From Dipylidium caninum (Eukaryota; Platyhelminthes; Cestoda; Cyclophyllidea; Dipylidiidae): a stretch of DNA of 64,000 nucleotides. Below, one piece after another: positions 20,431-63,804 of this stretch; the first letter of the stretch is position 1, and each line of letters starts with the position of its first letter. The position numbers and the translations under genes were made by a program. The notes below the pieces were generated by a model, which saw only the letters and a list, made by a program, of their open reading frames with translations, was not told the DNA's origin and searched no databases. Location of the stretch: assembly GCA_017562135.1 (NCBI GenBank), contig QEYB01001312.1, forward strand, positions 1,054,001-1,118,000. The letters run 5' to 3'.

Positions 20431-20782
20431 TTTGAGAAACTAGAACAACTAACTAGAAGGCGGCAACCTATCATTTCACATATAATTTGGTACGCGCACA
20501 AAGACGAAGTGAGCATATAGGCAGTAGTGTATCAAAAATTTCTCAGAATCTGTGACTCTTGCGCTAAAAAGTGGGCTGAAAAACGACAGTAAATAAATTA
20601 TTAAGGCGAATCAAGTAAAAATTTAGCGTGACAGCAAACTACATGCCTGAGAAGGAGTCCAGAGAAGTGGCGGATGGACGGGGATACTCGTCGCCATGCG
20701 GACTCCACGTGGCAACATTGATTTGGTCACACATGCACAGAGACCACCACCGCCACTAGCAGCGCATTCGGACGGTGGGAGA
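20430..20782 (+). promoter_or_regulatory. 5' flank shared with the PP1-like pseudogene
   Basis: This stretch upstream of the intact phosphatase gene aligns with the reverse complement of about 16520-16770. A long shared core around CAACTAACTAGAAGGC and TTTGGTACGCGCACAAAGAC is well conserved. It probably contains the promoter and 5' untranslated region copied along with the gene. No defined core promoter element was identified. Confidence 0.4.
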
Positions 20783-28578: not shown

Positions 28579-28683
28579 ATGGTTAGTATCTGTGGAACAA
28601 TTTTTCCTCAATTGTTCATGTTTTATTGTAGGTTTTGACGCCTTTCTGTGTCTTAACTTTTGTGAGTTGGGCTTCTGCCTCAG
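28579..28683 (+). CDS. Predicted start codon and signal-peptide exon
   Basis: An ATG at 28579-28581 sits exactly at an exon end before GTTAGT. A 50-nt intron (28582-28631, ending TTTATTGTAG) follows, then coding 28632-28683. Together they read MVLTPFCVLTFVSWASAS plus one G. This is a compact signal peptide with a hydrophobic core and a plausible cleavage site after ASA. The exon ends in phase 1 with G before GTAAAT, as every A exon requires. The end base matters: a T there would create stop codons with A2, A3, A11, A12 and A13, whereas G gives sense codons with all 17. The alternative is a leader exon further upstream. Confidence 0.55.
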
Positions 28684-31600
28684 GTAAATTTATTACTAGT
28701 AATTTCGTGTAATGCCTTCATTCAGTTTGGAATAATGATGTGAATTTTCACTGTCTTGCTGTTATTTAATTCGTTTGTTCGGTGGAATTAATATTTTATC
28801 TAAAATTCTATTAACTTTGTCAAGATATCTGTGTTTTTTGCCTCCCTCTGGACATTTCACGGATCTCATTCTTCATCCTACATTTTTGGTCATTTACGCT
28901 TACATTAACTGTTTTGCCATTTCTCAGTCTGGAAAGTGCGCAGGGTTTAATCTGCTGGTTAAATTATTTTATTCTTTTTACTTCCGAAAAGTGTACTAAC
29001 TCAGAATCTGATCTGGAATCCGGCAAAGCACTTTTGCTACAATTTCTTCATTATCTTAAATCGGTGACTTTTGGGAACTTCTTATTACTGGATATCTGTC
29101 AACGCCTCCTAAGCGGTGATTTTCACGTTGATCTTGGCTGATGTCATAACTTCCATGACCGTCGCACACATATATACTCCCATAGATACTTGTGCGTTGG
29201 TTAATTTTACTGATTTTGGTTCGTTTGGCCTCCTTCCTCGTAGCCGAATCTCTAAATCCCAAAGCGCAGTGCACATTCGACAAGGGGATGTGCGGCTGGA
29301 GCAATGATCAAAATAACCCGTGGTTACTCACTTTCCAAAACAAGCTCACTTTACAGTCTCTGCCATCAACCTCCAGCTGGCCCATTCTTTGCCTCTCAAT
29401 GAGGGCCCTACAGGAAATCGATTCAAGTGACTCGTGGTTCGCAGATGATGTTACCCTTTCGGCTTCTAAATTTTACCTACAACCGATCAGGACTCGTCTT
29501 CGTAGTCCGAACGTACCCGCATCCCTTAATCTTAGATGCCTCACCTTCTCCTATTTCCTCCAGCTAGATAAACGCGCAGATGGTGCAAAGGATCAAGTGA
29601 TTCTAGGCCTGCTCTTGCAAACGGACGGGTGATTGCTTGTTTCTAATCATTATCTTTTGTCAAGAGGGAGGGGTGAAAAAAACAAGTATATTATTTCAGA
29701 GAGTACTGGAAAAACTTTACAATGTTTTAAGCGCTTGCTACTGTATGTGTACTTTTATAGTCTTGCTGTCATTGCTGCGATGGTTAAAAGGGCTACCTGA
29801 ATTGATTCTGAGACGTATGCTTAAGGCCTTTCACTGAAGAAAACATGAAATCCGAGTTCACTTTAAATCTATTCTTCTTATAGCAAAGTGACGACGTTCT
29901 TTACAACAAAATGAGGTTTTTCGCTTTTGTGTAACCCTTTGGTTTCTGGATCTTGTTTTGCGCAAGATTCTGAGGTTTTAAACGATTCTGAACGTACGTC
30001 GTATGTCCTTCCTTGTTTCACGCATTTCCGCTAGAATCACCTATCAAATCTCTGGCAGTCTGCGATTTCGACGATGGAGATACATGCAGCTGGATGCACG
30101 AAGAAACGGTGTGGACACATCGGTGGACAGTTGAGCGAGGCTAGCTCTGCCTTATGGCTAAAATGCCACCTAGAAAGAAAGTTTCTTCCTGGGTGTCCAG
30201 TCTTTCAAGTGGACAGAGGATGCCCACTGCAGATGCTCGCGTTCGGTTCACCAGTCCTCCCATTTCCGCCGCTGTCGGAGTGAAGTGTATCACTTTTGAG
30301 CATTCCATCAATTTGGGATCAGTAATGATGTCAGCATTAAGTGTATCTGCCCGCATGTTGTCCCTGTTACAGCAGCAAGAAGGGTGCTTTCAAATTTTCT
30401 AATTGCTCCCATTCCTGTTCGATTTCTATCGAAGTTTTGCGAATCTGTTTTATATCACTTGTTTATTCAGTTTTTGATTATATTTCTTTCTAGCGATTTA
30501 ACAAAAATTCATTTCAACCTATTACGCCATAGTCTGATACCTTTCGGTGCAGGTAGCTCCTGTCCATACTGTGTAACACTAGCAGGATCCATTTGGTAGC
30601 ATCTCAATTTTAATCGTCCTTTATCTTACAAAGGTTACTTAAAGTTCTGTGGTCTCGGTACTTCTTATTCCATCCGATTTTTTAATGACATTTTTAGTTG
30701 AACTACCTTTTTTTCCGTTTCACATTTCGTCTCCTGATAATTGCAGTTTGAAACAACTTCTGTCTACTTTTTCGACATTTTCCGCGTTTTATAAATTCTA
30801 TGAATCTTTGTCTTTGGGAAATCTTTTTCGAAAAATGTACTAAAATTCGGGTCCAAACTTTTCTCTTCCCTCATTCTTACTAGAATTATCGTCCATCCAA
30901 CCGCTGGCTGTTTGCAATTTCGACGATGGTGAGATGTGCGGTTGGATTCATGAGGAGGTTCGGTGGACCCATCGCTGGGCAGTCACAGAGGGTTCTCTCT
31001 GTCTCACGTCCAAAGTGCCCTCGACTTTGTATAAAAAGAAGGCATCTTCTTGGTTACCTAGTATCTCTACGAGACAAGATCCCTTGGTAGATATTCGAGT
31101 TCGATTCACTAGTCCTCCGGTCTCTGCTACCTTCGAGTTAAAGTGTCTCACTTTATTATACGCGATTGGGTATGGAAACACGTCGAAATCCGAAGAGTCT
31201 TCCTGCCGTCTAGCACTGCTGAAACAGCAAGAAGGGTGACTTACTTCCCTTTCTTTCGATTCCTTCTCTTCTTTGTGGTCATTTCGGCTTGAATTTTTAA
31301 CCAAATAGGTGTCACTCGGTTAGTTCTCTGACGTCATCCCAATCTTGCATAATCAGAATTATCTGTTTACCGTTTGACTACCGCGCTTACTACTGATCCA
31401 TTTGATGGCACACGGTGAACACATCCGGCTTCATATTTATTAAATCTGTAGGAACCCGCTTTGTGGGCAATTCATTGAATTCTGTTTTCGAAATTACCAA
31501 ACTCATTGGAACAGTCTGGAAGTTATTTTGTATTCTAAAAATCTTTCGTCTCACTATTCTGTTTCATTAAACTCAATCATTTTTCATCGTCTTACCATTC

Positions 31601-34600
31601 GAATCGATGCTACACGTGTTTAATTTCATTTTTCAGTCCCGTGAATAAGCGTGCAACTAACTCCTTCTCTTCGTATTTGACCCAATTTTGAGTAATGCGG
31701 CTCATTTCCACTTGTCCGTATTCCGCCATATTCGCTAAATTTTGGCCGTCCATCCCTCCTTCCCCCCAGCATTTGCTTCGAATGGAATGAACAGGGAAAC
31801 TAAACAACTTGCGATTCAGCACCCCTATTTTCGATGGAGACGTTGACGACCATTGACACTAGGATTTAAACGACAAGGATGTGTACGGTTATTTTCGTAA
31901 GAAAAAGTTTTGATATTGTTGGCCTTCAAGCTAAACGGTAGAACTGTCCTTGTCATTCGATTTCAAGGTTTGTTGCACTTGCAGTATGGACAATTTTACT
32001 TCATACCGATAGATATTACAATTATTAAAAAAATGAGTTTTTCGGACCCGAAAAGCTTTCTACTATATACTGCGGGAGATAGTCTACATATTACATGTTC
32101 TATGTTCGGAAAATGAACGGTCCTTTTAAGATGCTGTAATGCACCTTCCCTTCTATCCAGTGAAAAAGCTACTAAATGGGTCTAACACACGTTTGGCCAC
32201 TGAACCTCTACTGCCCATGTCGAGTTGATTTCCTCTTTTTTGGCCTCCATTGTTCCTTTTTTCGTATTCTGTTTTTTTGGTCAAATTGAACATTGGATTT
32301 ATTCGCGACCTCCCCTTTGCTTCTCTTCCTTTCATTTTTGCTAGTGTCATCGCCGTCAACGATCACACCTCTGGCAGTTTGTGATTTCAACGACGGTGAA
32401 ATGTGCGGTTGGGTTCACGACGAACCTATATGGTCACATCGATGGGTAGTCACAGGAGGCTCTCTGTGTCTTGCAGCGAAAGCGCCCTCTCCACGCAAAC
32501 AGAAAGCCTCTTCTTGGCTTCCTGGCCTTTCCGCCGACCACTCAAATGAAGCAACCGATGTCCATGTTCGATTCACAAGTCCCACCGTTCCTGCTATCTA
32601 TGGACTGAGGTGTATCGCATTTGCGTATTCCATAGCTTTGGGAGCAGCGAAGTCCTCGAAACCCATCCAAGTTTCCAGTAGTCTTTCGTTGCTGCAGCAA
32701 CAAAAAGGGTGCTTAGCGTATATTTTTCCGTTTGTAATTTCCACAATCATTAGGAATGCCTCGATAGTAATTTTATCATCCCTCAGTTTGTGGCGGAAAG
32801 AATTTATTTCTCGTGATTTTCGTTTGATGTTTGAGCAATATTTTAGTAGTCTGTGCTCTCTTTCCTTCGAAGTGAAAAAAATGTAAAACGGTCTGGTAAT
32901 AACACATCTCGTTTTTGAAGTGCTAGTGTATGTGGGAGTGAACATGAAAGGTCTTGGAAAGTTGGAAAATTTACTAACCTTTTCCTTGGTAATCTAGGTT
33001 GTATTAGTTGGTTGAACTCACCAACACTCCCTTTGTGTTGTTGTTTCATGAAGAAATCCCTGTTGCAGTCAGCATGTGTAAATTTGAGAGTATCCTCGAT
33101 GGTTGGAACTCGTAAAGTGACAGTTGCCATCACTTTGGGCAGCCACACAATGAGCACTCTGTTTCCGGAAGCTGGAGAGTTACCTCGATTTGTAAATGAG
33201 GCTTCGTGGTGACTAAATTCATTGGTCCATCCATTTTCACATCACTTGTAATGCAGAACCTTTCATTTCTATATCATTTAGAGGTCTCTACCAATTTAAA
33301 TCCTCTCTCAAGGGTTCTGTGCTCCTACTTGGACATCTTTCGTTATCGACACTCGATAGATGAATTGTTCTCTCCACATTGTATGCGTTACGAGTTCGTT
33401 CTGCCAATTTGAAAATTTGCACACTGCTTCTTGATTAGAGGTCTGATTCAACTTCCGCATGACGCATTGTTTCAATGCCATTTTTAGTGATATTCTCGGT
33501 AGCCTATTACTTCTTGTCGCCTTGTCGTTTATGGCCACCCCCCAACATTCTAAAATACTGGTGTTTTGATGTGAGATATTTTTAAGCCGGCGTTAAGCGG
33601 ATTTCTTAAACGCGCACTTTCTTCCTCTAACTCGATAAGGAAAGGGAAACAAATTGCTGAAGCGGACTATGTCTGGATTGACTGACAAACACATCAATTC
33701 CCTTCATTCAGCTTTCGCTGTACTGATTATATTGCAATAAGAAGACGAGTATTGGAAGTTATGCTGACCATTGATAAGGAAATGACTATCCTTTGTGTTA
33801 ATTTACTTGATGTTCGAAATTTACACTCCAATATTCTTACTTCGAGTTCCCTGTCCTGTTGATAGCAGTTTGAGATCTAACTGCATAGTTCCCTAAGATG
33901 CTGTATTTTGCTGTCGTATTTCCCAATTCTTGTCAGCTGTTTTCATTTTCTCTCCTCTAGACTCAACTCCGAAGCCATATTACATTTGGGCCTTTGATGA
34001 AACCATGAGCGATTGGGTCAATGATGCTGCGAATTGGCATCAAAAGTGGCAGCTCACTGGAGGAGCTGTATGCCTCCAAAATATGTTAGCTAAGCATAAA
34101 CAGAAACTTGAGCAACTGCCTTGGCTCTCCTTGAAGGCTAATAAGGAAGACAAAGGTCTTAAGAAATCAAAAGCTTCTCTTTGGAGTCCGCCAATTCCAC
34201 AACATAGTGGAATGCTTTGTGTAACTATGAATTACATCATCATATCCGATCCTGCTAACGTGGAATCCTGCAGTCTTGCCATGCTGCAACAACAAGACGG
34301 GTGATTAAATATCTCGAAACTGTTCTCTTATTCCTTGCGTTTTGCCCTCCAGTTTGAATTCCTGAGTCTCCCTGATTTTTGACGGCGTTCTTTACTTTCT
34401 CGGATTGTCCGTTTTTGTCGGTTCAAATTTGAGGCTTCGTATTTTGTGAAGGTTGTTCGACTTCTCGTGAAGTACTACCTAGTTCATGTCAAAAGCCTTC
34501 GTTTGTCTTCTCTAGACACATCCGCGAGGCCATTTTTCGTGTGGACCTTCGACGAGAATATGGGAAAGTGGGCCAACGACATTTCAAACTGGCATCAGAA

Positions 34601-37600
34601 GTGGGAACTCATAGACGGTTCCATCTGCCTACACAATGTTTTCACTGAGGTCGAAGAATCCATTGACATGTCTTGGCTTTCCTTAAATAGTAGGCAAGAC
34701 GACACTCATAGGAAGAATTCAAAGGCTCGTTTGTGGAGTCCGCCCATTCCACTTGTTGTTGGAATGCAATGCATCTCGATTGATTATAAGATCAACGTAG
34801 ATTCCAGTGACTCTGAAGTTGGCAGCATTGCTATATTACAACAACAAGACGGGTGATTAAAAGTAACAAATTATCATTGTTGGCACCAGGCTCTTTGGTC
34901 CCTTCACCCTTAATTTGTCGTTCTGATTTATTTCATCACTAATATCCGCGGGGCGCCGCCCCTCCTCCCGCCTTTCACACTTATATTTTTGTTTTTTTCT
35001 TGAATTGTGGCCTCATGATGGTGTTATCTGACGTTAATGTCCCTTACTCCATCAATTTTTTGTCGACATTTCGCCCACAACTTTCGATTACATCGATTGG
35101 TTAGAGATCAGAAGTGAGTGACAGCTCATTTATGAAGTTGGTCCTCTTGTCACTGATAGTAGGCAAAATCTTTGAAATGCAAAGGTCGTGACAAAAAACA
35201 GCATAATTGTAGATTAGAGCATCATATCCGCTTTCGCAGTGTTTGTTTTACAGTCTGTCAGTATCGCAAAAACTGGGGGATTGAAACAATAATTGAACTA
35301 CTTTTCGCTTTACTATGAATTGTTGAATTTTGTCCATATTTTTTCTTTGTCTGTCGGGACATTTTTTTCATTTGATTCATTGGCTCTGGACTTTTTAATA
35401 AGATCTTACTCTCTAAGTCCATTGGTGCAAAGTTTTCGTCTTTGGTCTTTGTGCATTTTGGTTTTATCTCCGTTTCATGTACCTTTTCATGCTCTTTCGA
35501 CTATTTGTGTTTGGACCGCCATTGAAAATCCTGATAAAATAATCACGTGATATCATGAATGAGAAGGCGTGAACGAAGTTATTTGCCCACAGAATATGCG
35601 AAATCGGTTCCTGGCGCAATTTTTTCTCATGCAGATTTTCAGTTGAATGAAGATAGAAATGCCCCAAACGGGGGACCGCACTTCATGAGTTCTTTTTGGT
35701 CTTCTGCATAAAATGTATTTCCAGATAGCTCCAGTATCTGAAAACTTCGAGAATTTTATATCACCACCTTTGAATTCTTGCTGAATAGTGGTGATTTTTC
35801 AATTATCTGCCTGAAGTTTCTGAAATTCTTGCACTATTCCTTAGTGACATCCTTTTTTTAGCTGAAGTCTTGTCAGTCAATTCGTTTTATTTCCTATAGA
35901 CACATCTGTGAAACCATATTTTGTCTGGACCTTCGATGAGGACACAGACGGTTGGGTCAACGATATTTCTAATTGGCATCAAAAGTGGCAATTTACCGAC
36001 GGAACGATCTGTTTGTGTACTGGTTCGGATAAAACTAAAAAGCGGTCTAAGATTATCCCTTGGCTCTCGACGAACGTCAAACATCAAAAAAGCGCTAGAC
36101 CGGCAAAAGCGTCCCTTTGGAGTCAGCCCATCCCACAGGGTGTTGGTATACGCTGCGTCACGATGGACTACAACATTGATGAGGCTTCTATTACAACCGG
36201 AGCCCCTAGCCTTGTCATGTTGCAGCAACAAGATGGGTGACTGTTCTGACCTTCCGCTATGCTTAAATTTTTTTACACGGAGCTCCTCTCACTCTGCCAC
36301 CTACTCTTCACGTCCCCGTTTAATGATTTGGTTTTTTCTAGCGGATTGTTGGCCTTATGGCAGTTTTTGACTTGAACACTCATTTTTTCGATCCTGGGAA
36401 ACAATAATTCGTAATCGAGATCTGTTTCCTCGTCTTCACTCCATCTGTTGCAATATTTGTGATCTGGCGTTCATGTTCTCTGCTCCCTATCAGTTCCGTC
36501 TGTTTTACCTCCCATAGATGTTCCTCCGAAACCATTTTTCGTGTGGACTTTCGACGAAACCACGAGGAAGTGGACCAATGATGCTGCAAATCAGCGTCAG
36601 AAATGGGATCTTGTAAACGGAGCTGTTTGTTTATACAATGCGCCTTCCGTGTCTGATGAGTCGAGCGACGATTTGTCTTGGCTCTCTTTGGTTAATGAAC
36701 GACAAGACCGAGCAAAGAGTACAAAAGCTCTTTTCTGGAGTCCACTCATCCCACACGCTGTTGGAATGCGTTGTATTGCGATAAACTACAGCATCAGTGG
36801 CCATTACGAAGCGTTCGAGACTTCTAGCCTTGCCATTTTGCAGCAGCAAGACGGGTGATTAGATACACTTCAACCTATCGTCTATGTACTCTTTAAAGCT
36901 CCTCTCCTGGTCTCATTATTTGTCCCTGACCTTCATCGTGGAGTCGTTCTCCACCTCCATCTAGAGCGCGTTCCTGACACACTCCGTTTCTCCCTCGATC
37001 AATCTCTTTTAGCCTTTGAATTTTTTTTGCCCTTCATGCTTGAAAGTCCCTTGTCACGTTTGTGTCTTGTCGGTTGTTTCCGCCGTTCCTTTTTCTATTT
37101 TTTAAGTCAAAATTCGTGGTTTTTGTCAGAAGTTTTTCATTTTACATCCTATAGATTCCTCTCCAATGCCATATTACGTCTGGTCTTTCAATGAAAATAC
37201 TGGTAAATGGGTAAACGATGCGGCAAATTGGCATCAGAAATGGGATCTCATCGAGGGAGCCATCTGCTTACACAATACGCCAATTGAACCTAAGACCCCA
37301 TCTGACGACATTCCGTGGCTCTTGTTAAAACCGAAACCGGTAGAACCGTCTGTTGGGAACTCAAAATCACTCCTCTGGAGCCCACCTATTCCGCAAGCTG
37401 TTGGAATGCGTTGCATCTCGATGGACTATCTCATCGAAGTCGACTCCTTAGTTTCCCGGGTCTTATGGTCTTGCAATGCTCCAACAACAGGAGGGGTGAT
37501 TGGTTATATCTTAAATTCTCATCACCTTTCTTTAATTATGGATTTTGGCCTCGTCCTGCCTCTGTTTTTCGTCGGAGTGTTTTTTTTCCAATGGTTGCAT

Positions 37601-55600: not shown

Positions 55601-58600
55601 AAGTCCTTTCTAGCTCATTTATAGCTTTTAGTAAACTGACTTCTGATGACACTGAAAGAAAGAAAATACTATGTGACTTTAGAATGCAGAATATCTAATT
55701 TAGGCGGTGGTTGGATGCTCTACTCTGTCTATTAAACTCATTCTTTCCTCTCTTGGCTTTCACTCCTTCCCCCTTATGGCGCCTTTCGTTTACATTTCAT
55801 AATACTTTGTTTTCCTAGCGATTGCATCCAAGTTGTCCACCCCAAGTCTGGAAAACCCACAAGCTTTTGGTGGGTTGCATAGTTTTCCTTGAATTTTACC
55901 TGAATCCTTATTAGCACTAATGAAGATATTTGGAATACCACTGGCTCAACACGGGGTTGGCAGAGGGCCAAAGTCGATTTACCTTCTGGTGCAAAGAGTG
56001 ACTTTCAGGTATTAGTTAAGGGTTAAATCGTCCAAGTATGCAGATTTGGGTTTCGTCCCCTTTTCAGTAGTTTTTCTCCTTCGATTTCACTGACGCTGTC
56101 CATTTTCTTCTACGGTCTTCTGAAGCCTCATCTTGGCATATTCTATCCCTTGTCATTAAATGCACCAACTTTGTTGATTATTCTTACCAAACTATTCTAA
56201 CATACAACTTTTACTTTAATTTCATCAATCTACTTTTGTACGCTTTCCCTCAATTTTTCCCATCTTTTCGTCAAATTTTTCCTTGAGGAATTAAGAATTA
56301 CACTTTATCATTGATTGAACTTCTTGTGGCACCATTTTGTTATCTTAATAGGAATAAGGCTTATTCGGCACATCATTCATCCATCCACTTCCACAGACAA
56401 ATAGGCGATCATCTTACGAAAGTGAAGTGTTTGTAACTCTTGTGCTACTTAATCCCACCCAGTCTACCAGCTTATTAGCTAGAGTTTAGTGCGTAGGCCC
56501 ACAGAACATTTATAGCCGCCCATTTCAGCTTCTCCCTCTCCTTCTTCTATTCAGATTATTCTGGAGGGCGTCATTCCTGCTGGCTATCCCGATGCAAGAA
56601 TATGCGTGGACAACATTACGAGCTACACTGTGCCCTGCAGTGGTGCGTTGGCCTTCAATTATGTTGGGATATGGAGAGCTTAGGAAGTAGCATAGTTATG
56701 AGCATGAGGGCGTGAAGGGAGTTGAATGAGGTGGATAATCCTACTTGGACCTCTTCAATGACTCGTTTGGCGTCGATCTATTTGTTTGTTTTGTTCATAT
56801 TAATTATTTCCATCTTTTTTTCGCAACTACTTAATAGGATTTAACAATGAATGATATAAAAATGATTTTTAAGATTTCCAGGATGTCTATTTATATTTCA
56901 AAAATGGACATTTTTAACGTGAAATTGATCTTTTTCGTAAACGTCTCTTCGAAGCGTCCATTTTAAAATGTGTTGGCCGCCTTATAAAGTATTTTGATAC
57001 TGTTGGTTAACTTTAATAATTCTCATTTAATTCCGCCAATAAAGTGGGTGCTTACATTGGACTAAATTGCAAGGAAATCGAAATTACCTGCAAAAGGGAA
57101 GCGGAAAATTGTACCACTATTCAGTTGCAATGAGCGCAATGAAGGGATATCAGCTACGAGGTTATTTTAGTAAATGATTCCCTTATACTCCTAAGTTTAT
57201 CTGTTATGTCAGTTTCCTGAATCTGCACCTCTATGGATATGCTCCGCTCCTAATTCATCACTTCTGCCTACAATGTTACGGGGCCGTGCGTGAACAATTG
57301 GCTTTCATTTGAGTGCTTATGCAGCCTAAAATAGGATATGTTTTTTGGTAGACGATATTTTACGAAATCCCGTTAACAGATTACAATGCCGTGATGGATA
57401 ATTCTCTGATCTTACCCGATTCTCATAGAATCCGCTTCTGAATAAGGAGCTGGAATGTTTCATCAAAAGAAACATTAAAATATAAGAAATCAAACCGAGT
57501 ACGAAAATTTGGATGACTTCATGATCATTAAAAATATTTATTGAAAATATTGAATATTGAAAAATATTTATTGGTGTTCAATTGTATGTTGATACACTAG
57601 TCTGTCAAAGGAGGCGGTCTGTTAACCTTTCTCTGTCATTAAAATAATGGGTCATTTTGCGTAAAGTCATTCACAAACGCCTTTTCATGCAATAGACAAA
57701 TACTTGTCCTAAGCACAGCTTAATTTCCAATTTTAAATTTTTAACCTCCCTTCCTCTTGACTCCCATCACAATACCAGAGCTGGAGCCAAAACCAGCGAA
57801 GTCGTCATCGGCCACTTATACCTGGGCGCAGTACTTCGGCATCACTTTCATTGTTGCTCTGGCATTCGGTCTGCTCATTCCCATCCTCTTCCTGGTGGCC
57901 ATCATTGTGGTGTGCCGCCGCCGCCACGCCTACCGCCATCACCACTGCATGACCAATGGCTCCGGCGGCGGGATGAGCGTTGGAGGCGCCGGTAGCGGCA
58001 GCTACGGCAACAGCAAACTTTTCTCAGCCAACCTCTGGCATTACATCGGTGGAAAGGAGGTGGCCGATGATCCCTTTGCTGAACACACTGCCAGCATCCA
58101 CCGTCCTCCGTTCTCAGCGCATAAATTCTCGGATGGGACACTGGGCATGCGGGGCGATGGAACACTTGACCTGCCCGACGTTGTTATCCCCTCCGGTAAG
58201 TGCTCCCATCTGTTCTTTAAATGTTGGCTTCGTTGCTGCTCCTTCTGAGGTCTGGCGAGGCATACTCATTTGGGAGTGATTTCAAAGATGTCACCTAAAA
58301 AGCCTAGAACTTGTGATCCTAATTACTTTGTGCCATTGACACTAGGGTGAAACCATGGAGACTGAGGGCCAAAATTGTCAAATTTTGCCAGTAAAGCAAA
58401 TATTCTTGTCCAGGGCCCACATAAACCATTTGTTGTAGCTCTGATTTGAAAATGTCTTCAACTATTTTTATGCCATAAAACCATCAATGCTGCGAAAAAA
58501 TCGGTTTGTAATTGCATATACGGAAATATTTTCAAATTCTAATTGCATTTGTTGCCTTAACGACTAAATGATGCTTCTCTTTGTCTATCAGAATTTTATC

Positions 58601-61600
58601 AGCTAACCATTATAGGCAAACAATCATCTGAGCATGAAACTAGGCCTTAAAATTTTGCCGTATGGATGTTTTTGGGGTATTTAACAATAATAGTTCGCTT
58701 CAGGACTAATCATTGAAGTTGTTATTACTTTTGTCACTTGATACTGTAGTCATCCCTCCTTCCACTAACGTAGCCTTAGACTTTCCTCGTGTACAACAGA
58801 GTCCTCCTGACGCCAGTGTTTATGCTCCACATTCTCCACAATGTAAAACGTCGAGTGATCCATCGTGACGCCCCTTCCACCCTTTTTAAGGCATTGGCAT
58901 TGACAGACGCTTTCAATAATCCTGCGGAAAAAAAGTAATTAAACTGCCGTGTGGTGACCTACGTTTCGATGCCTAAGCACATTGCTGTGGTGTTCGGTTG
59001 TGCTAGCCAGAGCGTTTTTAAAGGCCGCTACGAAAAAGTGCTTCGAACAGCTCTATGATAGATTTCGGTCATAGTAAGACTACGAATCAGTCAATGGTGC
59101 CTTATCTTGCATAATTCACTGTGGTTTGTTCCTTTAAGGCCCAGTTTCAAAAATAAGGTTTGTGGAGAGTAAAGGTGTGGTTTCTACCTGATTTGTCTTT
59201 TTTCAAATCGTTACATACTCGAAAGGTAATCATCTGGTTCCTTTTAAAGCTTCCTTATGCCCTTATCATTAGCAACCAATTGCGTTTGACCGCATGTATC
59301 TGCTCCTACTAACTTAGTCCCCTGTCAAGCGCCCGATGGCGATGAAAAAATGACTCCTTGCAGATGGAAAAATTGGAATCTAGAAGTTTCCGGACACAGA
59401 ACACATGTAAAAAAGTTTACGGTGATGCTATTGGGTTAGTAATTGAGTGATTGCGGATTTTGTCAACACTTTGTTTTAATATTTCCGTTTTCACCCCAAT
59501 TTAAAATGGAAATTATGTGCTCCTGATGAGAATGAAGTCTTGAAGGAAAGGCAGTGTCGTCAAAAGTTGTTTGCCAGATTTCATCCTGGTGTTTTTTCAC
59601 TGCCAAATACTCAACGATTTGATTGTACATCCATTTGAAGGGAAATTAAAGTGCTCGACGATTTTGATCTTCATCAGAGCACAACAGGCGATGTTGCAGG
59701 GAGCCTCAGTTGCCAATCACATCGATGCATTAAGAACAGAAGTACGATTTTAAAGAGCTTGGCTATGTGAGGAAACTCCTTTGGTACAGCGCATTAGCAG
59801 CGTCTGCGACTCCTTGCATCCGAAGGGTAATGAAGTTGAGCCACTTATGAAAAGACTAATTACGGGCGTCGAAAAAGTGGAAGTTTGGACAAAAACTTTG
59901 AAACGGAAGATGAATTGGTTATACAAGATGAACCAGTCCAGCGACATCAAAAGCTGAGATTCACCAAGAAATTATTATGTTGTCGGTCTGTTGAGGATGT
60001 AAAGGTATTCGGTACTGTGAACTTCTGCCAGACGGACAAACGGTCAATTCAAATGTGTGCGTTTGACAACTCGCTCGAGCGAGCGATGCGATTAATTCGA
60101 GCAGAGCGGCCAGTGGTGGACGTCAGCGTCGCGAGGGTGTCGCTGTCGTTCACCATGATGGTGCGCAGCCGCACACGTCTGCGGTCACTCGCCAAAAGTT
60201 ACTGAATCTGGGTGGGAATGCGTTGACACGACCTCTCTGTAGCCCTGACCTCACGCCTTCAGGCTGCCATTTTATTTCTTCGTTTCTTACAGGACCCCTT
60301 AAATCTTAAAATTTCTGTCAGCCCTGATGGTGTCAAACCACATTTGATTCAGTTTTTTGGGTACTTGCTTGAACGATTGCAAAAGGTTATTAACAAAAGC
60401 GGACAGGGCCTAATTATTTAAAAGTTATATTTTTTACAAAAATTTTAGATTTTCATTTCTTTTTAAAAATCACAATCACTTTGTAAGTCGTACCTATTCC
60501 TAAGGGGTAGGTATGTACAAATGGGAAAAGTGTTCCTAAACCCTAGATAAACTGGAGATGCGCCTCATGCAGCATTCTTAAATCCACTTCATTGCATTGG
60601 TGATCCATTTCCCGTAAAGGTCGCGTGGTCGGGGGAACGTTGATGCGCCAGTCCTCACAGCCGACGTATAACGGAGCGCCCTACGGCTACCAAACCATGA
60701 TGGCCACGGGCAAAGCGATGCGCTACAACGGGATGCCCATGGCTCAGCCCAACAACATGCTTGCTTCGCAGACCAACTTCAACATGGACTTCGGCACTCA
60801 GGCACCGGTTCACAATGTGGCCCAACAAGGTAGCAAGGCTTGGCAAACACGCCTTTATTTTCTTTGCTGAACGTCAATTAGAAACTTGTTTTTTTGCCAT
60901 TTTTTCACCCCTTCTCCCATTTATCCATCCATCTCCATTTCATTTACTGTGCTGATTATCTCTGTCCTTTTTATCTATATCTACTTTCTCAGTATTTTAT
61001 TTCATTAAATTATCGCCATTCAACAAGGTCCCTACGCTAGCTCCGTCCTGTCACATTTGCCCATTCTCGAACGTACCACCTACCCATTTGTCGAACAGCT
61101 CCGAGCTGAAGGCGTCCTTCGTAGTGAGCATGCTCCAATCCATCCTACCATTTACCGGTCTCTTCAACTTATCTTCTCTCCTCAATGTTCACTTTTTTGT
61201 CTAACATAAACTCTGCTTAATCTCATCTACATCTTCACCCAATGATCTATCTACATCTATTTACTTTCTCTCCGTGCGTTGAAGTGGTTTTTCTGTCCAT
61301 AAGCGGTCACTCTGTTTCTGGGGCTTTGAGCGTTGCTTTACACAATGTGTTAACGATTATTGTGCTCTACTGTGATTTCCAGTAGAGCACACTCCTTCCT
61401 GTCACACGAATGCCCGCCTTCTCTGTATAGTATCATTTTCTTTGAATGAATACGGCGGCGCGAAATCTGTTTAAATTGTCATCCACGCATTATCTCTTCT
61501 TCCCTACTTTCCCTTTCGGTCAATGCACTATATTTTCAGACGGATTTTTGTACAACTCGTTATTTCGGCGTGCGTGACGTTATTTTGGCCACATTGATGA

Positions 61601-63804
61601 GTCTGCTGCGTGATTGGTGAATATTACGATCACGAACGCCTAAGCCAGGGCTTTAGTTTCATTAGTGAAAAGAAGTTAGGGGTAAAGTGCTTATGTGTTG
61701 CATTCGAAGATTCTTTTGTGAATGCGGAATAGTAGGTCGCATCTCCAACCCTCTTCCCCCCCCCCTTGTACTCTGTTTGCGCGATAAAATTTAAACAGGT
61801 TGTTTTTATCAGTTCCTTTTTTTTTTCAAAATACCGCTATAGCACTTGCCAGTTACATTTTGAAACTTTATAAATGTCGTGGAAAAGAGTGGCTATATAT
61901 GGATGTGTACATTTCTTCGAAAACCTCGAAGAGGATGAAGCGCCTTAATAAGCGGTTTAAGCTTGTTACCGAGAAGACCCATTGGAGCACTCAGGCCTCT
62001 CAGCTCAAGCTCGTCCGGAAGCAATTTGGGTAGCTGGACAGAACTGAGAGAGGCGATTCGATTCTTTCAGCTGTTTACAGGACGTCCCCAGAACATTGAA
62101 TCACTTGGCCATCCGTATCCACTTTCCACCTTTTTCTCCATGCAGGCAGCCACCAGATGATGATGCCGATGGCAGGCGTCCCTACTTCTAACCAAGTGAT
62201 GGTTCAACCTGAAGCTTCTCAGCAGGTAAACCTCATGGCCCTCAACTAATCTATGCATCAAATCACTAAGCGGCTCACTTTTTTCTCACTTGATTAGATG
62301 GTCCAGCCGGCGAACTACTTCCAGTCTCTGGCTCAACCAGCCAACTCGGCTGCTACTGGGGCTACTCAGCCTGTGGTGGTCGCCTCAGCGGCTGCTTCTA
62401 CGCCCTCTGTCACAGCCGCCGCTGCTCTGACGGCCACTGCTGCTCCGGTCACTGCTTCTACCCCTATCGTTTCTGCAATGGATGATAATGGACCCTTCGT
62501 ACTGCCTGATCCTCCATCTGACCACCAACAGGAGCGTGATCAGGTGAGATTTGCCCATCCCCACGCGTCATCGTGCTTAACATCCCTCTCTTTTTCATCG
62601 CGTTTTGTGACAGTTTTATCTCCACGATTGATGTGTATCATTACATTGTGTGCGTAGAAAAGAAAGCTCCAGCTTTCGACCTCTTGCTGCGAGGTAAATT
62701 CGAAATCGTCTAGATTGGTCCTTGTGGTGCTTAAGAAAAAAGCTACATAGTGGTGATCCCTTTTGCCGGCTCCCTCGGCAACTTCTACAAACAACTTGAA
62801 TTCTTTTTAGATCCTACCCTGCCATATTGTAAGGCCCAAAGCTTTCCAGTTGCCTTGTTTACACCTTCAGGAAGTATGTCACTTCGTGTTGTAGTCAAAT
62901 GGATACAGTATCTCACATAATGGCCTTCTACCAAAGGGTAGCTCTTAATTGGGACGAGTAATGAATTTACCCCCTTATGGCGGGGTCTCAGCCGTTTTAA
63001 AGGGCAAAGTCTCTTTCATGCATTGCTTTAACGTCCTCATGTCACAAAACGATCCTTTTTGTTGTAATTGGGAAGTCGAAGCAGATTTACATATCCTGCC
63101 ACTGCCACATTATGGGTGTAAGAATGTGCTCTAGCTCCTTTCCTGTTAGCATTGTTGTGCAGGCACTAATCCAAATCCACTCTTCACTCGTCGCCCCTTG
63201 TCTGAACGTTTCTTTCAGCTCGTCCTTAATCTATGCAGAGTATTTTATTTCCCAAAAATCAGAGTCTACAAATACTTTAACCAAGGAGCTTATGATTTAA
63301 CTTTGGCGGAAGGAAGTTAATGTCTTAATCGCTCATTTTAGCTGAGCGCAGGTTTTATCTCCGAACACGGATTATTTTGGAGACTGCCGAGCATATTTGT
63401 TTTGTCTAGCTGTACGTTTTCTTCTTACATTTTTTTCGGCTTCCTTTTTTCAATGTTGTGACCCGAATCACAGGTCTGCAATAATCTCCCTTGACCCACT
63501 CACAACGCGTTTATATGAAACTCTGGCTGTTTGCTAGGTTGCGGCCGCGTTAGATGCGCTTAACGCCGCGACGGAACCCCCGCAACCACGTCAAGGGACG
63601 TCGATGGCAGCTAGTGTGGGCGGAGAACACCCTCCTCCAGGCTATGACGAAGCGGTTGGCATGGCCGTCACTCGCTCCTCCGGTGGAGGCGCTGCTGCTC
63701 CCGTTCTGCCTCCGCGGCGCACTGTTCCAGTGACAAACAGCGCCGCCGCAGCCGAGCCTCTGAGTTTGGCGCAGCGCTACGGCCTCCCAGTGGCCGAAAT
63801 CTAA
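28579..63804 (+). CDS. MAM-domain receptor gene with two arrays of mutually exclusive exons
   Basis: Gene-level entry. The predicted mature product is signal peptide, one MAM domain, one transmembrane helix and a cytoplasmic tail of roughly 400 residues. Constant exons are the leader (28632-28683), D (56555-56642), the membrane exon (57779-58195) and tail exons (60620-60829, 61028-61123, 62146-62225, 62298-62543, 63538-63804). Variable parts are 17 A exons and 16 C-B cassettes. Phases at junctions are 1 (leader/A), 2 (A/C), 2 (C/B), 0 (B/D) and 1 (D/membrane), which allows exactly one A and one cassette per mRNA. MAM hallmarks are C-x-F-x-x-x-x-x-C-x-W, R-C-I-x-F-x-Y, L-W-N-x-T-G-x-T-S-G-W and I-C-V-D-N-I ending in P-C. 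MAM domains mediate adhesion or ligand binding outside the cell. Function here is inferred; the splicing mode is a prediction from frame and copy layout. Confidence 0.8.
29244..29628 (+). CDS. Array A exon 1 (MAM N-terminal half)
   Basis: The longest A exon at 385 nt. Acceptor CCTCGTAG, donor GG before GTGATT. It keeps the first MAM cysteine pair (QCTFDKGMCGW) and the NLRCLTFSY strand, and carries an extra acidic insert (EIDSSDSWFADDVT) compared with its siblings. It has no close relative in the array. Confidence 0.8.
30035..30383 (+). pseudogene. Array A exon 2, in-frame stop
   Basis: Member of the A2-A4 subgroup (LAVCDFDDGDTCSWMHEE). TAG at 30142-30144 stands where A3 and A4 encode the Ser of GSLCL. 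Length is 349 nt, and the splice sites (CCGCTAG and GTGCTT) and phase are intact. Selection of this exon would truncate the protein in the first third of the MAM domain, so it is either dead or acts as a null choice. Confidence 0.8.
30884..31235 (+). CDS. Array A exon 3
   Basis: 352 nt, acceptor TTCTTACTAG, donor GG before GTGACT. Reads LAVCNFDDGEMCGWIHEEV, GSLCL, RVRFTSPPVSATFELKC and ends LLKQQEG. Both cysteines of the first pair are present. Closest to A4 and the broken A2. Confidence 0.85.
32345..32708 (+). CDS. Array A exon 4
   Basis: 364 nt, acceptor TTTTTGCTAG, donor GG before GTGCTT, a weaker donor shared only with A2. Reads LAVCDFNDGEMCGWVHDEP and ends LSLLQQQKG. The preceding intron (31236-32344) is one of the longest in the array and holds no recognisable copy. 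The hydrophobic frame before the acceptor has no ATG and is polypyrimidine tract, not a signal peptide. Confidence 0.85.
33961..34300 (+). CDS. Array A exon 5, first member lacking cysteine pair 1
   Basis: 340 nt, acceptor CTCCTCTAG, donor GG before GTGATT. Begins TPKPYYIWAFDETMSDWVND: the C-x-F and C-x-W cysteines are both gone, replaced by aromatic and other residues. C3 is kept in GMLCVTMNY. Founder-type of the A5-A10 subgroup, all of which start PKP/SMP/PNP and read W-x-F-D/N-E. Confidence 0.85.
34516..34852 (+). CDS. Array A exon 6
   Basis: 337 nt, only 215 bp after A5, the closest spacing in the array. Reads FFVWTFDENMGKWANDISNW and GMQCISIDY, and ends ILQQQDG. A5-A10 subgroup without cysteine pair 1. 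Confidence 0.85.
35900..36236 (+). CDS. Array A exon 7
   Basis: 337 nt, acceptor TTCCTATAG, donor GG before GTGACT. Reads YFVWTFDEDTDGWVNDISNW, TICLCT and GIRCVTMDY. It has one additional cysteine (ICLC) that its neighbours lack. The 1-kb intron before it has no identifiable content. Confidence 0.85.
36518..36854 (+). CDS. Array A exon 8
   Basis: 337 nt, acceptor TCCCATAG, donor GG before GTGATT. Reads FFVWTFDETTRKWTNDAANQ, with Gln where siblings have Trp (ANW), then AVCLYN and GMRCIAINY, ending ILQQQDG. Confidence 0.85.
37155..37495 (+). pseudogene. Array A exon 9, one-base frameshift
   Basis: 341 nt, so it breaks the length rule (all other A exons are 1 modulo 3). The frame is normal through GMRCISMDYLIEVDS. 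It then shifts at a CCCGGG near 37457-37462, so the final GLAMLQQQEG-like segment falls one base out of phase with the donor. One extra C explains the shift. It may be a decayed copy or a sequencing error; splice sites look normal. Confidence 0.7.
37753..38092 (+). CDS. Array A exon 10
   Basis: 340 nt, acceptor TCTCCTATAG, donor GG before GTGATT. Reads NPYYIWTFDENTGNWANDLS, AICLHN and GMRCITMHY, and ends AMLQQQDG. The best preserved relative of the frameshifted A9. Confidence 0.85.
38639..38987 (+). CDS. Array A exon 11
   Basis: 349 nt, acceptor TTCGTGTAG, donor AG before GTGTCT, so the junction codon is Ser or Arg instead of Gly. Reads FHVWTFDKDLEYWSNDQDMW and NLRCLTIAY, ending LLERRDR. A divergent singleton without cysteine pair 1. 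The 1066-bp gap after it contains no recognisable copy. Confidence 0.8.
40054..40384 (+). CDS. Array A exon 12
   Basis: 331 nt, acceptor TTCGCGTCTAG, donor GG before GTATCT. Reads PILRWTFPDDFEEWTNDGDN and NLRCLSMAY, ending LLQRRKG. Sister of A13; both lack cysteine pair 1. The frame stays open to a second GG-GTGATT at 40490, which would give a phase-compatible exon longer by 105 nt. Confidence 0.85.
40724..41060 (+). CDS. Array A exon 13
   Basis: 337 nt, acceptor TTCATATCTAG, donor GG before GTCCTT. Reads PLLSWAFAEDLEEWTNDGDN and NLRCIAITY, ending LLQRQRG. Last member of the block without cysteine pair 1. Confidence 0.85.
41455..41746 (+). CDS. Array A exon 14
   Basis: 292 nt, acceptor TCTTTCCTAG, donor GG before GTAAGA, the strongest consensus donor in the array. 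The frame lacks an internal early ATG. Reads LTCGFENGSLCEWANDLNNW, with cysteine pair 1 restored, then MIECLKFDF, ending LMQKRMG. Confidence 0.8.
42525..42810 (+). CDS. Array A exon 15
   Basis: 286 nt, the shortest A exon. Acceptor CCCTATTAG, donor GG before GTGAGA. Reads LDCFFENGTICEWTNDPNNW, LLCLKQ and RIGCVKLNY, ending LLRKQMG. Sister of A14. Confidence 0.85.
43570..43936 (+). CDS. Array A exon 16
   Basis: 367 nt, acceptor CTTTCTTTCAG, donor AG before GTAACT. Reads FACDFEAQGIMSLCGWKDDP, so the loop between the first two cysteines is longer than in other exons, then SPQCLKFSF, ending LMRHSAR. Related to A17 through DDPRDS/PDPRDS. Confidence 0.8.
44525..44831 (+). CDS. Array A exon 17
   Basis: 307 nt, acceptor CGTTTCAG, donor GG before GTATGA. 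Reads LDCHFKNTCNWMPDPRDSTA, TMCLRP and NIQCLGFFY, ending LLHSSG. Last A exon; the next coding element is micro-exon C1, 800 bp downstream. Confidence 0.8.
44832..45631 (+). other. Spacer between array A and array CB
   Basis: 800 bp with no coding match. In Dscam-type systems such an interval can carry a docking sequence that pairs with selector sequences near each alternative exon. I see no obvious repeated element, so this is only the place to look. Confidence 0.35.
45632..45829 (+). CDS. Cassette CB1
   Basis: C exon 45632-45682, B exon 45730-45829 (100 nt), intron 47 nt. C reads CQIIKEEKSGQIGTF; B reads EVLWNTTGSHSTWNTAHISL and ends DFK. It has a sequon at WNTT. A divergent founder-like cassette without a close sibling. 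Confidence 0.8.
46264..46459 (+). CDS. Cassette CB2, both C-exon cysteines lost
   Basis: C exon 46264-46314, B exon 46357-46459 (103 nt), intron 42 nt. C reads LREVLDLATGKTLQI: the first cysteine is Leu (TTG) and the exon ends AG, so the junction codon is Ser. B reads DVIWSSEPVSQSLAWQNARV. Frame and splice sites are intact. Confidence 0.8.
47118..47298 (+). CDS. Cassette CB3
   Basis: C exon 47118-47168, B exon 47208-47298 (91 nt, shortest B), intron 39 nt. C reads NCHSVRDPVTGDTIKY; B reads KPHLLWKSDSVLGWRRASAD and ends DFQ. Groups with CB4 and CB12 by the KP-x-x-L-W start. Confidence 0.85.
47430..47616 (+). CDS. Cassette CB4
   Basis: C exon 47430-47480, B exon 47520-47616 (97 nt), intron 39 nt. 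C reads NCYQIPDPETGEPIRY; B reads KPKLLWKGTEATNWRKTSVD and ends DFK. It lies only 131 bp after CB3, the tightest spacing of cassettes. Confidence 0.85.
47778..47980 (+). CDS. Cassette CB5
   Basis: C exon 47778-47828, B exon 47872-47980 (109 nt), intron 43 nt. C reads FCRDIPDPLTGKMIRY; B reads EPQILWSTNSTKIFPTWSKA and ends SDFQ. First of three long-B cassettes (with CB7 and CB11). Confidence 0.85.
48474..48665 (+). CDS. Cassette CB6
   Basis: C exon 48474-48524, B exon 48572-48665 (94 nt), intron 47 nt. C reads RCVQVAHPITRKPSIF; B reads NDDLWNITGPTSGWQSVMVD. First of the main subgroup that carries a WN-x-T/S glycosylation sequon. Confidence 0.85.
48980..49186 (+). CDS. Cassette CB7
   Basis: C exon 48980-49030, B exon 49078-49186 (109 nt), intron 47 nt. 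C reads SCREFVSPETGKRITY; B reads EPEVLWSANATNGASTWSKA. Close to CB11 and CB5 despite the unlike cassette CB6 lying between. Confidence 0.85.
49373..49562 (+). CDS. Cassette CB8
   Basis: C exon 49373-49423, B exon 49469-49562 (94 nt), intron 45 nt. C reads DCVQVVHPVTGQTSSH; B reads NQHLWNFTGATSGWQIGKVD. The C acceptor is AATTTAG. Confidence 0.85.
50012..50202 (+). CDS. Cassette CB9
   Basis: C exon 50012-50062, B exon 50109-50202 (94 nt), intron 46 nt. C reads RCVHVPDPKSGKLTGL; B reads SDDLWKATGPTSSWENVKVD. The sequon is lost here (WKAT in place of WN-x-T). Confidence 0.85.
50642..50831 (+). CDS. Cassette CB10
   Basis: C exon 50642-50692, B exon 50738-50831 (94 nt), intron 45 nt. C reads DCVQVANPKGGKASSV; B reads NEDIWNVTGPTSGWETAKAD. 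The usual Thr before Gly in the C exon is Gly (KGGK). Confidence 0.85.
51460..51658 (+). CDS. Cassette CB11
   Basis: C exon 51460-51510, B exon 51550-51658 (109 nt), intron 39 nt. C reads SCSEFVNPKTGKRIQH; B reads EPETLWSTNSTNTAPSWSKA and ends ADFQ. Long-B subgroup. Confidence 0.85.
52225..52415 (+). CDS. Cassette CB12
   Basis: C exon 52225-52275, B exon 52313-52415 (103 nt), intron 37 nt, the shortest intron in the window. C reads NCKNVRDADTGEIHVI; B reads KPYQLWASIGSTGVSPVWKQ. Related to CB3 although eight cassettes lie between. Confidence 0.85.
52595..52957 (+). pseudogene. Decayed CB cassette
   Basis: Between CB12 and CB13, a degraded C-like stretch (NCGDIGATDPITG, from about 52660) lacks an acceptor and a donor. 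A B-like stretch at 52883-52957 keeps its acceptor TTTCGCAG and the terminal TTTCCAG-GT. Its middle has indels and two stop codons. It is a relic of a seventeenth cassette. Confidence 0.65.
53468..53658 (+). CDS. Cassette CB13
   Basis: C exon 53468-53518, B exon 53565-53658 (94 nt), intron 46 nt. C reads RCVEIADPITGKSSSH; B reads NDDLWNASGPTSGWKGARVD. The sequon is N-A-S rather than N-x-T. Confidence 0.85.
54216..54403 (+). CDS. Cassette CB14
   Basis: C exon 54216-54266, B exon 54310-54403 (94 nt), intron 43 nt. C reads RCVQVADPKTGKPSSF; B reads NDDLWNVTGSSSGWQSAKVD and ends ESDFQ. Confidence 0.85.
55264..55446 (+). CDS. Cassette CB15
   Basis: C exon 55264-55314, B exon 55353-55446 (94 nt), intron 38 nt. 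C reads GCVQVAHPITGKLTSV; B reads HDDLWNDTGSTSGWRHAKVD. The closest match to the MAM consensus among the B exons. Confidence 0.85.
55819..56008 (+). CDS. Cassette CB16
   Basis: C exon 55819-55869, B exon 55915-56008 (94 nt), intron 45 nt. C reads DCIQVVHPKSGKPTSF; B reads NEDIWNTTGSTRGWQRAKVD. Last cassette, 546 bp before constant exon D. Confidence 0.85.
56555..56642 (+). CDS. Constant exon D, end of the MAM domain
   Basis: 88 nt, acceptor TCTATTCAG, donor GTGCGT, phase 0 to 1. Reads IILEGVIPAGYPDARICVDN then ITSYTVPCS. This is the last MAM strand pair, with the family's D-D/N-I motif and terminal cysteine. It is present once. Its phase accepts only the end of a B exon, so every variant must finish through this exon. 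Confidence 0.9.
56643..57778 (+). other. Intron, AT-rich
   Basis: No exon is supported. An imperfect repeat of AAAATATTTATTG occurs about three times at 57530-57575. Confidence 0.5.
57779..58195 (+). CDS. Transmembrane and juxtamembrane exon
   Basis: 417 nt, acceptor AATACCAG, donor GTAAGT, phase 1 to 1. A short Lys/Ser/Thr stalk leads into a helix of about 27 residues (ITFIVALAFGLLIPILFLVA and IIVV), then a basic stop-transfer CRRRHAYRHHH. This gives a type I orientation with the MAM domain outside. After it come a Gly/Ser-rich linker and a segment ending LPDVVIPS. It follows D in matching phase. Confidence 0.9.
58750..58868 (+). CDS. Possible alternative terminal exon
   Basis: Acceptor ATACTGTAG, phase 1, open for 38 codons to TGA at 58866-58868. 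It is Pro/Ser-rich (IPPSTNVALDFPRV, QQSPPDASVYAPHSPQ). The phase matches the end of the membrane exon. Use of this exon would replace the long tail with a short one. No polyadenylation signal was confirmed, so it may be chance. Confidence 0.3.
59530..60420 (+). mobile_element. Mariner-type transposon relic in an intron
   Basis: Reading across frames gives mariner transposase segments in order: RQKLFARF-x-x-GVFSL, FKELGYVRKLLW, ELLPDGQTVNS, HHDGAQPHTSAVTRQKLLNL and CSPDLTPSGCHF. The catalytic region is broken by several stops and frameshifts. Terminal inverted repeats were not identified. It lies in sense orientation within the intron between the membrane exon and the next tail exon. Confidence 0.8.
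60620..60829 (+). CDS. Tail exon 2
   Basis: 210 nt, acceptor CCCGTAAAG, donor GTAGCA, phase 1 to 1. Encodes a cytoplasmic segment rich in Met, Asn, Gln and Tyr (YNGAPYGYQTMMATGKAMRY, MPMAQPNNMLASQTNF), with several tyrosines that could be phosphorylated. Confidence 0.75.
61028..61123 (+). CDS. Tail exon 3, possible cassette exon
   Basis: 96 nt, acceptor TTCAACAAG, donor GTGAGC, phase 1 to 1. Reads PYASSVLSHLPILERTTYPF then VEQLRAEGVLR. Because it is phase-neutral it can be skipped; exon 2 joined straight to exon 4 would read VAQQGSHQMMM. Confidence 0.55.
62146..62225 (+). CDS. Tail exon 4
   Basis: 80 nt, acceptor CTCCATGCAG, donor GTAAAC, phase 1 to 0. Reads SHQMMMPMAGVPTSNQVMVQ then PEASQQ, continuing the Met/Gln-rich composition. 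Confidence 0.7.
62298..62543 (+). CDS. Tail exon 5
   Basis: 246 nt, acceptor TTGATTAG, donor GTGAGA, phase 0 to 0. Gln/Pro start (MVQPANYFQSLAQP), then a long Ala/Thr/Val/Ser run, then acidic-proline PFVLPDPPSDHQQERDQ. Probably disordered. Confidence 0.8.
63538..63804 (+). CDS. Terminal tail exon with PPxY and SH3-type motifs
   Basis: 267 nt, acceptor TTTGCTAG, phase 0, stop TAA at 63802-63804. It carries PPPGYDEA (a PPxY motif for WW domains, for example Nedd4-type ligases) and PVLPPRR (PxxPxR, an SH3 ligand). It ends LPVAEI. GC-rich and probably disordered. These motifs suggest adaptor binding and turnover control of the receptor; that is inference. Confidence 0.85.
   Translation, partial: VAAALDALNAATEPPQPRQGTSMAASVGGEHPPPGYDEAVGMAVTRSSGGGAAAPVLPPRRTVPVTNSAAAAEPLSLAQRYGLPVAEI

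Follow-up and report, generated by a model that had tools for sequence, protein, structure and literature searches.

A tapeworm locus with two arrays of alternative exons predicted to yield combinatorial single-MAM surface receptors

The window analyzed here is a stretch of 64,000 nucleotides from the Dipylidium caninum assembly (contig QEYB01001312.1), and the locus under study occupies positions 28579-63804 of its forward strand. The locus runs from a leader through 17 A exons and 16 pairs of C and B exons (CB) to six constant exons. The A exons correspond to the first half of a MAM domain and the CB pairs to its middle; the constant exons complete the domain and add a membrane helix and a tail. 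Exon segments were found by iterated HMM searches of the six-frame translated window. These retrieved 17 A segments (29258-44823), all on the forward strand, with E-values of at most 1e-19 for the 15 found in one piece and with A2 and A14 each in two weaker pieces. They also retrieved 16 B segments (45734-56008) plus one weak match on the reverse strand (E 0.27), and 13 C segments plus two weak reverse-strand matches. Three further C exons, 5' of B1, B2, and B12, were located via splice signals. The searches and splice signals confirmed the 17 first-half and 16 middle versions of the original prediction, but its single constant exon was replaced by six, of which D1 (56555-56642) ends the domain and five more encode the membrane helix and tail. 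In the following list, A, B, and C exons were delimited by HMM and splice-boundary picking unless another basis is given.

28579..28581, +, leader exon 1: start codon, or site for a trans-spliced leader (sequence, spliced models)
28632..28683, +, leader exon 2: signal-peptide-like by reading (VLTPFCVLTFVSWASAS), ends in phase 1; resembles IVTALFALTFVSWASAS of T. solium P0014
29244..29628, +, A1
30035..30383, +, A2, with an in-frame stop
30884..31235, +, A3
32345..32708, +, A4
33961..34300, +, A5
34516..34852, +, A6
35900..36236, +, A7
36518..36854, +, A8
37155..37467, +, A9, out of frame near its end, end uncertain (also frame models)
37753..38092, +, A10
38639..38987, +, A11
40054..40384, +, A12
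40724..41060, +, A13
41455..41746, +, A14
42525..42810, +, A15
43570..43936, +, A16
44525..44831, +, A17
45428..45443, +, weak candidate docking element in the A17-C1 intron (docking search)
45632..45682, +, C1 (splice signals)
45730..45829, +, B1
46264..46314, +, C2, without either cysteine of the C-exon pair (splice signals, cysteine count)
46357..46459, +, B2
47118..47168, +, C3
47208..47298, +, B3
47430..47480, +, C4
47520..47616, +, B4
47778..47828, +, C5
47872..47980, +, B5
48474..48524, +, C6
48572..48665, +, B6
48980..49030, +, C7
49078..49186, +, B7
49373..49423, +, C8
49469..49562, +, B8
50012..50062, +, C9
50109..50202, +, B9
50642..50692, +, C10
50738..50831, +, B10
51460..51510, +, C11
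51550..51658, +, B11
52225..52275, +, C12 (splice signals)
52313..52415, +, B12
53468..53518, +, C13
53565..53658, +, B13
54216..54266, +, C14
54310..54403, +, B14
55264..55314, +, C15
55353..55446, +, B15
55819..55869, +, C16
55915..56008, +, B16
56555..56642, +, D1, constant end of the MAM domain, starts in phase 0 (splice models, Pfam, Echinococcus comparison)
57779..58195, +, D2, membrane helix and start of the tail (splice models; helix modelled in fluke orthologues)
60620..60829, +, D3, tail (splice models, comparison with relatives)
62146..62225, +, D5, tail (splice models, comparison with relatives)
62298..62543, +, D6, tail (splice models, comparison with relatives)
63538..63804, +, D7, tail end with PPPGYDEA, LPPRR, SLAQRYGLPVAEI, and stop (comparison with relatives)

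In tapeworms, trans-spliced leaders are said to have ATG as their last three letters. Within 28579-28631, the first coding exon may be the start codon alone, and trans-splicing may use the acceptor at 28631. A seventh constant exon, D4 (61028-61123), was modelled and then dropped because it has no counterpart in Echinococcus. Two further stretches were noted inside the locus. At 33070-33220, a short sequence resembles the start of an A exon by eye and contains stops (perhaps a relic), and in the D2-D3 intron (59840-60420) there are frames that read like a decayed mariner-type transposase, with no Pfam match.

The 17 A exons measure 286-385 nt and lead from phase 1 to phase 2, the C exons measure 51 nt in all 16 cases (phase 2 to 2), and the 16 B exons measure 91-109 nt (phase 2 to 0), with C-B introns of only 37-47 nt. 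All A and B lengths leave a remainder of 1 on division by three, although phase was imposed when boundaries were picked, so that this uniformity is partly built in. For the C exons, lengths of 42-60 nt were searched in steps of 3; the 51-nt cut was the sole candidate in nine of the 16 and was picked by likeness to other C exons in the remaining seven. Adjacent A exons lie 215-1252 nt apart. In searches of the whole assembly (920 contigs, 106 Mb), in which the best candidates were scored, A and B matches were confined to this locus and to one other contig of 17.9 kb (C185). The latter is a redundant, error-rich copy of 36950-52815, aligned collinearly in one piece at 93.4% identity. The copy is cleanest over 40-45 kb, where each kb shows 1-9 mismatches and 0-8 gap columns. 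The middle of this contig is cleaner and both ends are full of small errors, as if unpolished, and its first 2.2 kb have no match above 90% identity. It was rejected as a source of polymorphism because of the error-rich ends.

Spliced models revealed how strongly the reading frame constrains the use of these exons. With D4 omitted, all 240 models that join one of the 15 sound A exons to one matched CB stay open from the start codon through to the last stop; the one model that was measured encodes 614 residues. The up to 240 intact ectodomains foreseen from the letters (15 A times 16 CB) were thus reproduced. None of the 16 models with A2 was intact, on account of its stop, and 13 of the 16 with A9 were, the end of A9 being uncertain. 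By contrast, no model remained in frame when two A exons (0/136) or two CBs (0/120) were placed in series, when A was skipped (0/16), or when CB was skipped (0/17). The frame therefore requires one A and one B. It was kept, however, in 240 of 240 models with C left out and in 136 of 136 with Ci joined to the same or a later Bj, so that the frame alone does not enforce the pairing of C with B. As in a mutually exclusive cluster, the exons are homologous and in tandem, have compatible phases and splice sites, and break the frame when used jointly, with the exception of the end of A9.

MAM is an adhesion domain. One A together with one CB should give a complete MAM domain, as had been proposed: all nine spliced models tested, out of the 240, passed the Pfam cut-off (PF00629). 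The profile was covered from position 1, 2, or 8 to 157 in eight of them and from 41 to 157 in the ninth. Coverage by the separate parts was complementary, with A4 alone matching positions 1-83 and CB14 plus D1 alone 101-157. Above the cut-off Pfam reported MAM only, and no Ig or FNIII domain was found in these nine models; weak matches to Ephrin_CRD fell below the cut-off and were rejected. All 17 A exons encode two cysteines, and a further pair is present in eight and absent in nine, with neither of its members ever found singly (0/17). Likewise, the cysteine pair of the CBs, which lies in C with its second codon split by the C-B intron, is complete in 15 of 16 and wholly missing in one. We compared 42 exon pairs in four groups of related exons, and dN/dS was 0.05-0.40 in the 29 for which dS was finite; the majority of these were close to saturation. 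Paired change of cysteines and low dN/dS are expected of old variants that have each been kept as a working protein. In AlphaFold models of two fluke orthologues (P0047 and P0022), the first half and the membrane helix were modelled and CB had a pLDDT of about 40-55. A Foldseek search with these models, which are weak over CB, gave no PDB match at E 0.001, and 5oj2 was matched at E 0.14 only. The tail carries the motifs PPPGYDEA and LPPRR, and its PPxY is presumably a WW-domain ligand. The tail end SLA(E/Q)RYGLPVA(E/D)I is conserved in those tapeworm and fluke entries that reach it.

Judged by sequence similarity, orthologues of the predicted receptor occur in other tapeworms and in flukes, which is new here. 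A full-length search, in which about 8,000 candidates sharing the most words were scored, gave 77 homologues, all from tapeworms or flukes, with no near-identical protein among the matches. A profile search of about 8,000 best candidates added 15, including further flukes and the monogenean Protopolystoma. The constant part is 82% identical in Echinococcus granulosus, 80% in Anoplocephala, 78% in Hymenolepis diminuta and T. solium, 76% in Mesocestoides, 58-60% in Spirometra and Schistocephalus, and 39-46% in three flukes. A search with the constant region, among 3210 candidates of limited length, gave 62 matches at E 0.1 or better, all of them from tapeworms or flukes. This one search, which requires shared five-residue words, gave no match in free-living flatworms, and this is only suggestive of the absence of the locus from them. 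The Schistocephalus entry P0029 consists of the tail only and starts within the membrane helix, possibly as a partial model.

The fluke proteins were examined for how the segments are combined. The 58 fluke clusters of the full-length search (278 member sequences in sum) were all submitted to a single-cut script, and 51 could be divided into one A and one CB. These pairings came from S. mattheei (14), S. spindalis (10), S. bovis (8), S. margrebowiei (7), S. mansoni (5), Dicrocoelium (3), and four other species with one each. In two of the pairings the A is a stub, of 5 and 21 residues, and in four it is a 51-residue piece. Among the single-cut pairings the same A was found with different CBs and the same CB with different A's. 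One A type of S. mattheei was joined to six CB types; in four of these six combinations the A is a 51-residue piece. In P0054 of S. margrebowiei, A is joined directly to B without C, an in-frame skip that the 51-nt length permits. An HMM count over all 92 homologues, with HMMs that include these proteins' own segments, found exactly one A, one CB, and the start of D in 50, all of them flukes and all database gene models, which may be founded on RNA data. No paper on how these fluke models were made was found in the open-access literature. The interpretation first proposed is supported, as one A plus one CB keeps the frame, gives a Pfam MAM domain in the nine models tested, and matches these 50 database proteins. 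We therefore regard it as highly probable that this is one gene whose RNA would be spliced to include exactly one A and one CB, giving up to 240 single-MAM surface receptors.

A tree of the 17 A exons of this locus and 16 fluke A exons was examined for the age of the array. Since it has a midpoint root and many long branches, we relied only on its two marked forks. One of them unites A14 and A15 with three fluke A's (support 95/86), and in the other, five fluke A's join A16 and A17 (99/94). A third fork, which unites A1-A13 with three other fluke rows, has a support of 93/93, just below the mark of the tool, and within it A1-A13 cluster among themselves. Because two A subfamilies cluster with fluke A exons, part of the A array is likely older than the split between tapeworms and flukes. 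In the monogenean protein P0091, four second-type A segments follow one another, with DPRD and, for the most part, HSSG. Other tapeworms have counterparts of the exon types, for example one at 75% in Hydatigera for A17 and one at 82% in Echinococcus for CB10, and these are often, though not always, closer than the nearest copy within the window.

Many variants of a predicted surface protein in parasites could also be a store for antigenic variation with fast turnover, by which the worms would escape their hosts. Such turnover is unlikely, as the variants look old, with two A subfamilies spanning tapeworms and flukes, second-type A segments in the monogenean, and low dN/dS wherever it can be computed. 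Conserved variants favour a recognition code over fast antigenic change.

On the one hand, several A and CB units might be spliced in a row into a longer ectodomain, and at least two A segments are indeed present in 20 of the 92 homologues and at least two CBs in 11 (three proteins are in both groups, and 14 of the 92 are fragments). Chaining is also seen in fluke entries, among them P0078 of S. mekongi and P0080 of Clonorchis. Tapeworm entries either split the gene (T. solium P0005, P0010, and P0014) or chain its exons. On the other hand, none of the two-A or two-CB models stays in frame, and first halves in a row without second halves make no MAM domain. Moreover, in the eight chained proteins inspected, non-A residues lie between the A segments, as from a retained intron, although some gaps are of only 2-7 residues. 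An A, a CB, and the start of D are all present, once or more, in 54 homologues, and 50 of these hold exactly one of each, the exceptions being P0015, P0078, P0079, and P0082. We read the cut or chained tapeworm entries as probable mispredictions and consider serial splicing very improbable. Serial inclusion and separate genes, two of the outcomes that the original prediction had set against itself, fit these data badly, though 20 of the 92 homologues are annotated with serial A's.

Alternative promoters would act in another way, as in protocadherins or sDscam, with each A having its own promoter and start and being joined to CB and D. The A array does lie 5', and 16 of the 51 fluke models lack the leader, several of them beginning inside A. 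In the other 35, however, the leader shared within the species precedes different A's, and all 17 A exons of the tapeworm can be read from a phase-1 acceptor whose last letters are TAG or CAG. The sequence comparisons lean against a separate promoter and 5' end for every variable exon, and we give this arrangement hardly any credence. A decayed or tandem-duplicated locus, with few exons in use and the rest relics, would explain the stop in A2 and the lost frame of A9 but is equally implausible, as 15 of 17 A exons and all 16 CBs are intact, dN/dS is below 1 in the computable pairs, cysteines are lost in pairs, exon types are matched in other tapeworms, and A subfamilies recur in flukes.

Under the preferred reading, one A and one CB per receptor, a single transcript would begin at the leader, and one A and one CB would be joined to D1, so that Dipylidium caninum would splice in the manner suggested by the fluke proteins. 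The short C-B intron may allow each pair to be spliced first as a unit, which would then compete for A and D1. Donors of the form GTGNTT are found in seven of the 17 A exons and may be weak. Exclusive choice could come from control of splicing, for example by competing RNA pairing, with frame-breaking products discarded. The spacing of the A exons seems too wide for simple steric exclusion, which would leave competing RNA pairing or a choice driven by factors. The isoforms may serve selective recognition at the cell surface through homophilic or ligand binding, relayed by the one shared tail.

Pairing between docking and selector sequences is known for one array of Dscam1. A docking search over four layouts gave its best result for a dock in the A17-C1 intron against the CB array, where p was 0.02 when compared with 60 shuffled docks and 0.00 when compared with 30 shuffled-target sets; p was 0.07-0.40 in the other three. 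This weak candidate is purine-rich and introns hold pyrimidine tracts, and a comparison with other introns was made for this reason. Its score was reached by none of ten other introns when the final 45 nt of each target were masked and by one of ten without masking, and the scores of the other layouts were reached by 2/8, 3/14, and 13/18. No convincing docking/selector pair was found across the four layouts, and the A17-C1 element is kept as a lead.

The locus had been called Dscam-like, which applies to its working principle (one piece per array and a shared tail) and not to kinship, as the nine models lack an Ig domain. According to two papers (PMC1397879, PMC4835542), arthropod Dscam1 likewise has arrays of alternative exons for pieces of the ectodomain, one of each being used per receptor, and a common membrane part and tail. 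The tapeworm locus, however, belongs to a different phylum and gene, no Ig or FNIII domain was found in it, a single MAM domain is the whole predicted ectodomain, its second array consists of two-exon pairs, and up to 240 forms are predicted as opposed to 38,016. In chelicerate sDscam, as portrayed in one of these papers (PMC4835542), multi-exon repeats are also joined to constant exons, but these cassettes lie 5' and generally have their own promoters. The CB pairs, in contrast, are internal and behind another array, and the fluke relatives share one leader. Clustered protocadherins have large first exons with their own promoters and encode cadherin domains. Like the tapeworm locus, those of vertebrates combine many ectodomains with one common tail, as the same paper indicates (PMC4835542). 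From the sequences, the locus seems to differ from both systems in having a shared leader instead of a promoter for each variant. Splice variation of proteins, with small exons, is also found in the parasitic flatworm Schistosoma, for which passages of a review of parasite splicing name micro-exon genes and VAL genes with SmVAL isoforms; those passages describe neither such exclusive arrays nor a MAM domain (PMC4015677). Unlike micro-exons, the A exons are 286-385 nt long, and C, at 51 nt, is the only small variable exon. Meprin, neuropilin, RPTP-mu, and MDGA1 carry the same domain type (PF00629) on cell-surface proteins, and, as far as is known, their MAM domains are fixed. We know of no exon arrays in MAM-domain proteins and of no MAM domain in such receptor systems.

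To our knowledge, large receptor repertoires from one gene occur in few lineages. On balance, we lean slightly towards an invention by parasitic flatworms, independent of Dscam and protocadherins, in which one gene, with one array of exons and one of exon pairs, would have joined hundreds of single-MAM ectodomains to one invariant signalling tail since the ancestor of tapeworms and flukes (perhaps also of monogeneans), for cell-surface identity or host recognition. No paper describing this receptor was found among those that searches of the open-access literature listed, and an account may exist in subscription papers or preprints. If true, this would be an independent case of a large one-gene receptor repertoire, in a phylum for which no description of such a receptor was found among the open-access papers listed. 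One could then test whether surface identity of a combinatorial type has evolved more than once, and which kinds of surface recognition parasitic flatworms need. The cutting and chaining found here in tapeworm entries hides a conserved predicted surface protein.

Upstream of the locus, at 15749-16552 on the reverse strand, lies a broken-looking copy, related by eye and without a Pfam match, of an intronless frame of 401 residues at 20651-21856 on the forward strand. The latter matches Metallophos (PF00149, E 3.7e-33) and reads like what is presumably a catalytic subunit of protein phosphatase 1.
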